A model generated the notes under the pieces. It made no database searches. It saw only the letters and a list, made by a program, of their open reading frames with translations, and had not been told where the DNA came from. Position numbers and translations under genes: made by a program. A stretch of DNA of 20,477 nt from a virus. The stretch is taken from positions 1 through 20,477 of IMG/VR virus record IMGVR_UViG_3300007363_000138; one strand, 5' to 3'. Positions 4,437 through 8,523 of this stretch are shown one piece after another; position 1 is the stretch's first letter; the number at the start of each line of letters is the position of its first letter.

Positions 4437-4718
4437 TTAGGCGGGGGTGATGGTAGTTGTACCGTCAGACGAATCAATCCATGTGCTAGCAGCCAAAGCG
4501 CCTTGAGCAACGTAGAAAGTCTTGGTAGTTGTGTTGTACAACGTAGTACCCAAAGCTTTACCAGAAGTGTTTACTGCGTTAGCAATAGCACCCAGAGCAG
4601 TGGAAGTTGTAGTTGTGGAGGTCAAAGTGCCGGTCACATTACCGGTTGTATTGCCAGTGACTGCACCAATAAAGCCGTTTGTGGACGTTACTGGGCCGGA
4701 GAACGTGGTTGATGCCAT
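4437..4718 (-). CDS. Fibre-like Thr/Gly-rich protein, 93 aa, behind a structured leader
   Basis: A 93-residue low-complexity protein dominated by Thr, Ser, Gly, Asn and Ala. Residues 15-40 contain repeated GxVTGNTTGNVTGTLT units like those of trimeric phage fibres or spikes. The C-terminal part (LYNTTTKTFYVAQG, DSSDGTTTITP) resembles short structural proteins of environmental phages. It is the first gene after the capsid terminator and has its own candidate promoter. Its site AAGGAA touches the end of a predicted pseudoknot (4730-4783), so translation may be controlled by RNA structure. A decoration or fibre role is inferred. Confidence 0.68.
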   Translation of the reverse strand: MASTTFSGPVTSTNGFIGAVTGNTTGNVTGTLTSTTTTSTALGAIANAVNTSGKALGTTLYNTTTKTFYVAQGALAASTWIDSSDGTTTITPA

Positions 4719-4801
4719 GATAGTTCCTTACATACAAGTGGGGCACATTAGTCTGTATGTCGTCAGCCGGGACTGTCTAATGCACCGGATAACCCCGGAG
4801 T
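4719..4801 (-). ncRNA. Structured 5' leader with candidate H-type pseudoknot
   Basis: On the minus strand the roughly 83-base leader of the 93-aa gene contains two crossing helices. Helix 1 pairs 4777-4783 (GCATTAG) with 4745-4751 (CTAATGT); with a tandem G-U step it can extend to ten pairs (4777-4786 with 4742-4751). Helix 2 pairs 4754-4760 (ACATACA) with 4730-4736 (TGTATGT), perfect over seven. The order 1a-2a-1b-2b makes an H-type pseudoknot with loops of 16, 2 and 8 bases, which is sterically feasible. A further CCGG hairpin lies at 4785-4798. Helix 2 ends directly against the AAGGAA ribosome site. The pairing is seen; the regulatory function is inferred. Confidence 0.5.
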
Positions 4802-4807
4802 GATTGC

Positions 4808-4836
4808 AATATACACCAAATAAAAAACACATGCAA
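4808..4836 (-). promoter_or_regulatory. Candidate promoter for the second structural gene set
   Basis: On the minus strand TTGCAT (4831-4836), a 17-base AT-rich spacer and TATATT (4808-4813) resemble a sigma-70 promoter (-10 five of six, -35 three of six). Transcription would start near 4801, right after the capsid terminator and at the beginning of the structured leader, which strengthens the placement. Confidence 0.4.
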
Positions 4837-4840
4837 CAAA

Positions 4841-4867
4841 TAAAAAGGGCCCCCGAAGGAGCCCTTT
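4841..4867 (-). terminator. Rho-independent terminator after the major capsid gene
   Basis: Minus-strand transcript AAAGGGCTCC-TTCG-GGGGCCCTTT (4844-4867) forms a ten-pair stem, with one G-U pair, closed by a C(UUCG)G tetraloop. The U-run continues as TTTTTATTT at 4838-4846. It lies 37 bases past the capsid stop and would limit read-through from capsid to the downstream genes. Confidence 0.85.
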
Positions 4868-4903: not shown

Positions 4904-5833
4904 TTAAGCGCCTGCAGAACCCCACATACCGAGAGGATCAGACCAGCCGAAGCTATAACGCTCGCGGGCTTTGTAACGAACGTTACCTGTATCGAAGTCA
5001 CCGTCCATGCTGTTTTGCAAGGCGATACGCTCGAAGTGCTTCATGCCGTTTGGCACGTCGGTAATCAAATACCAGCCGTTCACGTCGGTCAAGAAGTGGT
5101 TAACAGTGTAACCTTCAGGGATTGCACCCATCTGCTTCAACGCGTTGATGTCGTTGTCAGCAGTTGCAACACGCAACTCTGTGTCCAACAGGCGCTTGGC
5201 CGTGAACATCAGTGATGGAGGAACAATCATCTTACGGGGCTTGGCGGCGATCAACAGACCGCGCTCATCTGTCCACGCAGCGATTTGAATCACAGCGTTT
5301 TCCAATGAGGTTTCGTTCAAGTCAACACCAGTTGTTGGGCTGTTGTAGTTCACGCCACCGTTAACGAGTGGGTGACCAACGCGAGCGCTGGAAGAGTTAA
5401 CACCGAACAAAGAAACGCCGTCACCGCCCAAGTATGAACCGCTGAAGCCGTTGTTGATAACGGAAGCAGCTTTAACTTGCTTGGTGTAAGCCATAGCACG
5501 GGCCAAAGACTTTGTGTAGCGAGCAGACAAGCTGTCGTACAAGTTATCTTCCACAGCTTCTTCCGTGATGGAGAAACCGAGGGCGATAGTCTCGTGGTTG
5601 TAACGTGCTGTGAAGGCTTCCTGCGCATTGTCATAAGCAATGGCTTGGCCCTCGTTCTTGACTGGAGCAGAACCAAAGCCAGCCAGCTTTGTTTCTTCTT
5701 CGAAGCTACGCTCAGATTTCTCTGTTTCGTAGATTTCTTTGTGCTCTTCGCCGTAGCGTGCGTATTCCATACCGAACAAAGCGTTCAGACCGGGGAGCAA
5801 CTCTTTAAGTAGTTGTGCGCGTGAAATTGCCAT
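4904..5833 (-). CDS. Major capsid protein (Mu gpT-like / HK97-fold type)
   Basis: A 309-residue protein beginning MAISRAQLLKELLPGLNALF, the characteristic start of gpT-like major capsid proteins in environmental phages. Further landmarks are ARYNHETIALGFSITEEAVE (about 75-95), DERGLLIAAKPRKMIVPPSL in the middle, LRVATADNDINALK, and a C-terminal FDTGNVRYKARERYSFGWSD. It forms the icosahedral shell, assembled on the scaffold encoded three genes upstream. AGGAG stands about nine bases before the ATG. No separate protease gene is seen in the neighbourhood, so whether the shell matures by cleavage is unclear. A strong terminator follows. Confidence 0.92.
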   Translation of the reverse strand: MAISRAQLLKELLPGLNALFGMEYARYGEEHKEIYETEKSERSFEEETKLAGFGSAPVKNEGQAIAYDNAQEAFTARYNHETIALGFSITEEAVEDNLYDSLSARYTKSLARAMAYTKQVKAASVINNGFSGSYLGGDGVSLFGVNSSSARVGHPLVNGGVNYNSPTTGVDLNETSLENAVIQIAAWTDERGLLIAAKPRKMIVPPSLMFTAKRLLDTELRVATADNDINALKQMGAIPEGYTVNHFLTDVNGWYLITDVPNGMKHFERIALQNSMDGDFDTGNVRYKARERYSFGWSDPLGMWGSAGA

Positions 5834-7889: not shown

Positions 7890-8336
7890 TCAAGCGCGGG
7901 TCAAACCGCGAGGGTCTAGCACAACAGCATCAACTTGGTCATCGTTGATGAGACGGAACTCCTTACCGAAAATCTTGAATCGGGTACCGGAGTAAGTACG
8001 CACTAACACGAAGTCGCCCTCTTTACACCATGCTCCGTTGGGGAACTTGGCGGTGTCTTTGTACGCATCGGGGCCTACGCGCAACACAAACAGCACCGTG
8101 GTGGCGTGTTCTTCTTGACGCATAGTGGCTGTATCTCTCACGAGATCCAGTGTTGTTCCTGCAATCTTTTGTTCGACTTCAGGGACTACGCAGAGCAATT
8201 TCCAACCTGTTGGGGTGGGCAGTGCGCCTGCTTTCGTTTCGTTGTCATCATCCGCCTCTGGTTTGTCCATCGGTTGAATGTGGGGCGGCAACGAAATACC
8301 GGGAGGCAGGATTAAACCTGATTCAGATTCCATCAT
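7890..8336 (-). CDS. GroES-like co-chaperonin fold protein, 148 aa
   Basis: From the ATG at 8334-8336 the product starts MMESESGLILPPG. About residues 45-145 align by eye with the GroES/Cpn10 barrel: GWKLLCVVPEVEQKIAGTTL matches the GroES opening strand and mobile-loop region, VLRVGPDAY the G-D turn, and GDFVLVRTYSGTRF plus LINDDQVDAVV the last strands. Phage GroES-like proteins (T4 gp31 is the known case) assist capsid folding with host GroEL; placement next to the scaffold agrees. The ATG overlaps the 66-aa gene by 14 bases, with no good site of its own. A TTG ten codons upstream is less likely. The mobile loop lacks the typical GGIVLP, so GroEL binding is uncertain. Confidence 0.7.
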   Translation of the reverse strand: MMESESGLILPPGISLPPHIQPMDKPEADDDNETKAGALPTPTGWKLLCVVPEVEQKIAGTTLDLVRDTATMRQEEHATTVLFVLRVGPDAYKDTAKFPNGAWCKEGDFVLVRTYSGTRFKIFGKEFRLINDDQVDAVVLDPRGLTRA

Positions 8337-8523
8337 TTGCTTTTTCGACTTTCTCAAGCAGGTCAAGGAGATAACGCTCTGCGAGAGCTAGACCTGAAAT
8401 AATCCCGCAGAGTTTTTGGTATTCCTCAAAGGAACGACACACACCACCAGCCAAGTCGTCGGCGTAGTTGTTCATGTCTGTACGTATTTTGTCGCGCAAT
8501 ACGTGTGCGAAGTCTTGGATCAT
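8323..8523 (-). CDS. Small helical protein between portal and GroES-like gene, 66 aa
   Basis: A 66-residue protein, MIQDFAHVLRDKIRTDMNNY at the start and LALAERYLLDLLEKVEKAND at the end, predicted mainly helical. A homologous type of gene (with the RDxI...DDLAGG core) is a regular companion of the portal in environmental phages. The start overlaps the portal stop by four bases (ATGA), and its own end overlaps the next start, so the three are coupled. Function unknown. Confidence 0.72.
   Translation of the reverse strand: MIQDFAHVLRDKIRTDMNNYADDLAGGVCRSFEEYQKLCGIISGLALAERYLLDLLEKVEKANDGI

Follow-up and report, generated by a model that had tools for sequence, protein, structure and literature searches.

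The 5' leader of a 93-aa gene directly downstream of the major capsid protein gene, in the 20,477-nt viral DNA analysed here (IMG/VR record IMGVR_UViG_3300007363_000138, positions 1 to 20,477; hereafter the window), is a genuine, strongly conserved multi-knotted RNA, and the decisive support for it is comparative. Judging from sequence and position, we read it as a cis-acting leader that controls translation of a capsid cement or decoration gene (probability roughly 0.6); it most likely controls the timing or the amount of the decoration protein. The element is probably a new class of leader RNA, a more elaborate counterpart of Mu-gpT-DE (Rfam RF03012) that comes from the same stock.

All elements of the leader lie on the minus strand of the window. 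The features of the locus, with the basis of each in brackets, are the following:

4904 to 5833, minus strand: major capsid protein gene, Mu gpT-like, the upstream neighbour (Pfam and PHROG matches)
4842 to 4867, minus strand: intrinsic terminator of the capsid gene, a hairpin and U run, AAAGGGCTCCTTCGGGGGCCCTTTTT (sequence)
4831 to 4836, minus strand: promoter-like -35 TTGCAT, with a 17 nt spacer to the -10 (sequence)
4808 to 4813, minus strand: -10 TATATT, ending 9 nt 5' of P0a (sequence and comparison)
4793 to 4798, minus strand: P0a, the 5' strand of P0, CCGGGG (pairs with the hpA loop, 4772-4767)
4777 to 4786, minus strand: S1a, the 5' strand of S1, GGTGCATTAG (covariation)
4764 to 4775, minus strand: hairpin hpA, CAG[TCCCGG]CTG, whose loop 4772-4767 is P0b (covariation)
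4761 to 4763, minus strand: unpaired conserved ACG, from hpA to S2a (A and C invariant in A1; AC also in RF03012)
4755 to 4760, minus strand: S2a, the 5' strand of S2, ACATAC (pair swaps and covariation)
4752 to 4754, minus strand: unpaired conserved AGA, from S2a to S1b (invariant in A1; GA before S1b also in RF03012)
4742 to 4751, minus strand: S1b, the 3' strand of S1, CTAATGTGCC (covariation)
4727 to 4738, minus strand: hairpin hpB, CTT[GTATGT]AAG, whose loop 4735-4730 is S2b (covariation)
4724 to 4729, minus strand: Shine-Dalgarno sequence AAGGAA (5 nt before the ATG)
4437 to 4718, minus strand: 93-aa gene, the putative target of the leader, ATG at 4718 (N-terminal motif MASTTFSGPVTSTNGF)

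The capsid protein of the window matches Pfam PF25209 (2e-11) and PF10124, Mu-like_gpT (1e-5), above cut-off, and also phrog_371 (8e-17). An ORF is located between portal and capsid at 7890-8366 (minus strand), where cultured relatives annotate a phage co-chaperonin GroES. The promoter-like pair that the first-pass annotation had placed after the capsid terminator is found there (TTGCAT 4836-4831, TATATT 4813-4808, terminator 4867-4842), and a terminator is present at the equivalent site in many relatives. The -10 (four or more of six matches) lies 8-10 nt 5' of P0a in 119 of 162 relatives, against 5-33 of 162 at shifted control positions, and only 24 of the 162 have a -35 match together with the -10. 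In most relatives the distance from the end of the -10 to P0a is 9 nt, which would place the start of the knot a few nucleotides from the 5' end of the mRNA.

The leader RNA (4798-4724, about 75 nt) comprises five helices and three pseudoknot-type interactions, in the 5'-3' order P0a, S1a, A, hpA[P0b], ACG, S2a, AGA, S1b, linker, hpB[S2b], GAA, ATG. S1 has 10 pairs including G-U (4786-4777 with 4751-4742) and is crossed by S2, which has six pairs (4760-4755 with 4735-4730) and possible flanking ones, as well as by P0, the third long-range helix. The hairpin stems have three pairs each: 4775-4773 with 4766-4764 in hpA, around a 6-nt loop, and 4738-4736 with 4729-4727 in hpB, of which the 3' strand is the AAG of the Shine-Dalgarno sequence. 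The first-pass annotation had proposed two crossing helices, the second ending directly at AAGGAA, and both statements agree with our analysis: the 3' strand of S2 (4735-4730) directly abuts AAGGAA (4729-4724). Its S1/S2 knot stands, but the structure was incomplete, as P0, hpA and hpB had been missed and there are three pseudoknot-type interactions rather than one. P0a can also form an alternative hairpin (window 4798-4783) with CCGG, CCCAG or CCTAG just before S1a, which excludes P0; this hairpin can be drawn in 127 of 162 leaders against 27 expected by shuffling, and it is a possible alternative state, enriched but not universal, on which the mechanism proposed below does not depend.

A nested fold of the leader gives no signal (z = +0.7), as is expected of a pseudoknot. 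When the five-helix plan is scored, the window leader reaches 59.7, whereas the maximum in 585 dinucleotide shuffles of 195 upstream regions is 50; the full plan is found in 191 of 195 relatives with a mean score of 60.5, compared with a mean of 11.5 for the shuffles. Two results, both from 162 distinct leaders, are independent of alignment: in 158 the hpA loop (P0b) pairs with the upstream strand of the same leader (34.5% in swapped combinations), and in 155 S2a pairs downstream in its own leader (12.6% when swapped). We also aligned 36 diverse leaders with MAFFT, without fitting to the structure. In this alignment 86.1% of the cells are paired (65.7% after shuffling) and 201 cells show double changes (72 after shuffling). 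The covariation score of 0.573 compares with 0.216 in shuffles and at most 0.168 with slid partners, and both sides change in 23 of 26 pairs. The unfitted P0 and S2 covary likewise in a second alignment, which has 57 sequences and was fitted to S1, hpA and hpB alone.

Looking at each helix separately, double changes are seen in four of the five pairs of P0 in both the 36- and the 57-sequence alignments, in all nine aligned pairs of S1 (93.5% and 97.1% of cells paired in the two alignments, with up to six pair types for each pair), in all six pairs of S2 and in all three pairs of hpB (CTT/AAG, CTC/GAG, GTG/CAC). The hpA stem is 99-100% paired, and its middle pair occurs as A-U, U-A, C-G and G-C. 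In view of how many pair types occur and of the controls with slid partners, the covariation is hardly doubtful, although the shuffles keep the relatedness of the sequences. The first-pass annotation had held that a lack of covariation in its two helices among related phages would speak against the element; S1 (9/9 pairs) and S2 (6/6) both covary. It had said the same of a leader that is not conserved where the gene is, and the RNA is present in 62 of 63 relatives of the gene.

The latter count comes from the 80 viral loci found with the 93-aa protein as query. A covariance model of the window-class leader (R1) matches the window and 62 of the 63 gene-relative loci tested, directly before the gene. 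The only exception is L042 (590-727), a relative of the decoration gene without the leader RNA, which may be a paralogue or a rearranged copy. A gene-blind pattern scan gave 120 viral loci; a readable gene is present in 117 of them, always within about 40 nt downstream of the RNA, and the N-terminal motif is found by pattern in 113 of these, the other four having related forms (MGFATHLGP, MGIATHLGP, MARTSFSGP). Each of the 20 long contigs (32-65 kb) contains exactly one copy. Among loci fetched by the capsid protein alone, 111 of 157 have the RNA, namely 72 of 79 with the window capsid protein as query and 39 of 78 with that of Planktothrix phage Pag-Yong1. Three records of 65,014 bp each (OQ594354.1, OL906435.1 and PP438419.1), deposited under Synechococcus, Planktothrix and Planktothricoides hosts, have identical capsid and terminase match scores and look like one phage.

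Concerning cultured phages, a search of INPHARED with the 93-aa protein gave no match, and the cultured relatives were reached via the capsid protein. The carriers are Pelagibacter phage HTVC023P (E 7e-10) and lake phage DSL-LC04 (E 8e-7). HTVC027P, phage 023Pt_psg01 and Pag-Yong1 have the S1xS2 knot in the same position, with an S2 strand that overlaps the Shine-Dalgarno sequence; the full S1xS2 knot was not found in the leaders of CRP-902, Alcaligenes QDWS535 and Caulobacter RW. The HTVC027P-type leaders (L288, L303, L326, L331, L337) are an A-T-rich pelagiphage version with P0 ACTGTA/TACAGT or CTATAC/GTATAG, a variable S1, and an S2 (CCTAG/CTAGG) that overlaps the Shine-Dalgarno sequence. 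R1 scores them weakly or not at all, so they need a model of their own. Applied to 84,980 bacterial and archaeal genomes, the pattern scan, which covers one sequence subtype only, gave 73 matches against an estimated 60 or so expected, and only four MAG contigs among the matches contain the full element; a host origin of the RNA is unsupported by these near-chance numbers.

Members of the gene family (window, L001-L201) share MA.TTF(S/T)GPV.S.NGF: the N-terminal 16 residues are near-constant and are followed by unrelated C-terminal parts. This constant N-terminus with a differing remainder suggests a common capsid anchor carrying interchangeable outer modules. The N-terminal peptide carries almost no charge (a net 0 or +1 in 95 of 117). 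The 93-aa protein has no Pfam or PHROG match, and a PDB sequence search with it and with the capsid protein gave nothing credible; weak matches to PDB spike proteins were set aside as low-complexity. The AlphaFold model of the window protein has low confidence (67) and was not used. For a cement-like subfamily, the model (pLDDT 73, moderate confidence) has the jelly-roll fold of cement proteins; among the top PDB matches to it are the phage KHP40 cement protein and capsids from KHP30, cyanophage Pam1 and Ralstonia phage GP4. The DSL-LC04 version is annotated as a cement protein. With one version of the family predicted to have a cement fold, the gene product appears to be a capsid cement or decoration protein, and a cement-like product is probably needed in many copies.

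A leader that touches the ribosome site, as the first-pass annotation described it, is the rule among the relatives: of 162 leaders, 135 have the Shine-Dalgarno sequence covered by hpB and another 12 have it covered by S2b (147 in total), counts that lean upwards since the helix finder maximises pairing. Against masking, the Shine-Dalgarno sequence is itself unpaired in 13 of the 162, lying 0-3 nt downstream, and in two it was undetected; since hpB has only two to four pairs, the masking could also be weak. In the HTVC027P-type phages S2b masks the Shine-Dalgarno sequence directly. By architecture there are four masking solutions: hpB/S2b, S2b alone, S1 (in Mu-gpT-DE) and a separate hairpin (in the hybrid leaders described below). 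That the masking helix differs from one relative to another favours translational control, and the end of the element in the ribosome site, the retention of masking in four ways and the tie to a single gene together point to translation initiation. The folded leader would hold the Shine-Dalgarno sequence in hpB/S2 and lower 30S loading, and translation would start when the fold opens, be it that S2 has not formed, that ribosomes compete with it or that a bound factor is released. A factor that sets the state would most likely make contact with the conserved core (the A preceding hpA, the AC following it and the AGA preceding S1b); candidates for this factor are a host factor, a small ligand, the capsid protein or the cement protein outside its N-terminal peptide. 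The effect could be either regulated or a fixed setting of dose, and of the layouts named in the first-pass annotation it could equally come from a riboswitch, an autoregulatory site or ribosome standby. The charge of the N-terminal peptide does not favour direct binding of this peptide to the leader.

The first-pass annotation knew no element of this kind by name in phage structural operons; RF03012, Mu-gpT-DE, sits at the same position in related phages. This RNA, reportedly first described by Weinberg et al. in 2017, scores above the gathering threshold in 17 of 20 knot-less Pag-Yong1-type loci tested, Roseobacter phage CRP-902 included. A model of the Mu-gpT-DE-class leader (R2, class II) finds this class in 34 of the 78 Pag-Yong1-type loci, where one class or the other is present in 73, and has no match in the window or in window-type loci. 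RF03012, typed in Rfam as Gene; sRNA, is the 5' leader of the decoration gene at L281 (4996-5048) and at 34 loci of L447-L526. The two RNAs occupy the same junction, bounded by a Mu gpT-like capsid gene upstream and, directly downstream, by the start codon of a gene of the same decoration family, and both have a masked Shine-Dalgarno sequence and a core of S1a, A, hpA (flanked by C-G pairs), AC, linker, GA and S1b; the order and the invariant bases of this core are shared by A1, A3 and the Rfam consensus. The window leader is set apart by the addition of P0, S2 and hpB, which brings some 30 nt and three pseudoknot-type interactions. Mu-gpT-DE has a short S1 whose 3' strand is the Shine-Dalgarno sequence (CAGGAG), which its consensus thus shows paired in S1, and this helix covaries (CCCUG/CAGG, also given as CCUG/CAGG, vs CCUUG/CAAGG). 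In the window, S1b (4751-4742) is apart from the Shine-Dalgarno sequence (4729-4724), which is masked by hpB/S2 and not by S1. The window has no RF03012 match at gathering or at E up to 10, and a search of 20 window-class relatives gave none either. As both the model match and the S1/Shine-Dalgarno feature were looked for and are absent, the window element is not a member of Mu-gpT-DE.

A third architecture is formed by hybrid leaders, also downstream of the capsid gene (L354, L355, L360, L449, L450, L454, L480, L482, L485, L500, L509, L526). These combine a window-like P0/S1/hpA with GCCAAGA as in Mu-gpT-DE (for example L450, L485, L500, L526), and most have the Shine-Dalgarno sequence in a separate covarying hairpin (ATTAAGGAGACTTAAT, ATTTAGGAGACTAAAT, ATTTCCGTAGGAGGAAAT, CGGGAGACCG); Rfam matches none of the seven hybrids tested. 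That the window class and Mu-gpT-DE have core and position in common, and that hybrids exist, speaks for descent from one RNA rather than for convergence. On a capsid-protein tree of 77 rows the leader class changes 11 times, at least six of these changes being forced by well-supported branches, and sister capsids can differ in leader (L498 window class, L499 Mu-gpT-DE class). One cement-like family is found under both classes, and the same protein can stand behind either leader: those of DSL-LC04 (window class) and CRP-902 (Mu-gpT-DE) are 71% identical over 151 aa. The simplest reading is that different leaders do the same job for the same gene. A wider reading, which we hold only tentatively and think unlikely as it stands, takes knotted leaders, Mu-gpT-DE and hybrids as one superfamily that couples translation of the cement protein to capsid assembly, in which the core would sense capsid or cement protein in its free form, or some other signal that depends on assembly, and open the ribosome site.

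Leaders that protect mRNA are known from ompA and T7 gene 10, and the main rival of translation control, though an improbable one, is a constitutive 5' leader that would shield a highly expressed late mRNA from decay and keep expression steady with no switch. The closeness of the predicted mRNA 5' end to P0a fits such a role, as does a cement-like product probably required in many copies. Protection alone does not require four conserved modes of Shine-Dalgarno masking, however; Mu-gpT-DE offers only a short helix and a hairpin, and in some relatives a terminator stands directly before the element with no clear -10. A separate small RNA gene, as the Rfam type of RF03012 implies, is very unlikely: the promoter-like site and the compact structure would suit it, but the RF03012 consensus ends in the start codon (ACAUG), the element always adjoins the same reading frame, and a terminator is absent between element and gene. 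Slightly less credible still is a ribozyme that cleaves itself and so shortens the mRNA at its 5' end. The element is small, knotted and near the predicted 5' end, yet the Rfam ribozyme models do not match it, invariant unpaired bases are few, and cleavage so near the 5' end would gain little.

Two further explanations are forms of the translation-control reading. Under autogenous control, free cement or decoration protein, or unassembled capsid protein, would bind the RNA core and repress translation, so that supply would be adjusted to assembly. Coat proteins of RNA phages are a precedent. T4 gp32 is another phage precedent (PMC535899). Only one gene family is ever controlled, and conservation extends to the RNA core and to the N-terminal peptide but not to the C-terminal domains; the near absence of charge on the N-terminal peptide and the switching of leader class while the protein family stays speak against it, and we regard this form as rather doubtful. 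More doubtful again is a riboswitch for a metabolite or ion with a translational expression platform. Compact pseudoknots that mask the Shine-Dalgarno sequence are typical of the SAM-II and preQ1 classes, in which two helices cross and the second covers the ribosome site, and the enriched P0a hairpin might be the alternative state. The target is a virion gene and not a metabolic one, however, invariant unpaired bases are few, and the hairpin is missing in many relatives and partly reflects the CCGG palindrome.

None of 4227 Rfam models, riboswitches and ribozymes included, matches the window leader or the 20 window-class relatives tested, and a permissive Rfam search of the window gave sub-threshold matches only, the best on the terminator. 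The crossing helices resemble those of SAM-II and preQ1; the window differs in being unmatched by the Rfam riboswitch models and in controlling a virion protein. The gene 32 leader of T4 and RB69 appears to differ from the window leader in topology and position. It is likewise a phage mRNA-leader pseudoknot linked to translation of the downstream gene (PMC535899). It acts as an autogenous translational operator, and its gene product is a ssDNA-binding protein, unlike that of the window gene. Polynucleobacter-1 RNA (RF01718), which the first-pass annotation had put forward for comparison, is similar in its fresh water and estuary origin and its proposed cis-regulatory role (PMC2864571); it was excluded, as neither the window nor 20 relatives match it at any threshold used. 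Rfam release 15 does not contain the window class, and no description of it was found among the mainly open-access papers searched.

The finding adds a sizeable phage RNA class with exceptional covariation, so far missing from Rfam, that occurs in freshwater, estuarine and marine phages including the cultured HTVC023P, whose group is reported as the most abundant among pelagiphages (PMC12753301). The orphan family RF03012 gains a plausible role as the leader of a capsid-cement gene. The finding also offers a natural experiment, in that one ribosome site is masked by several architectures, which have taken one another's place across the capsid tree. If the trigger is an assembly signal, the leaders would reveal the way in which DNA phages keep capsid and cement protein in proportion, and the superfamily reading, if true, would mean assembly-coupled translational control in tailed DNA phages, including the abundant HTVC023P-type pelagiphages.
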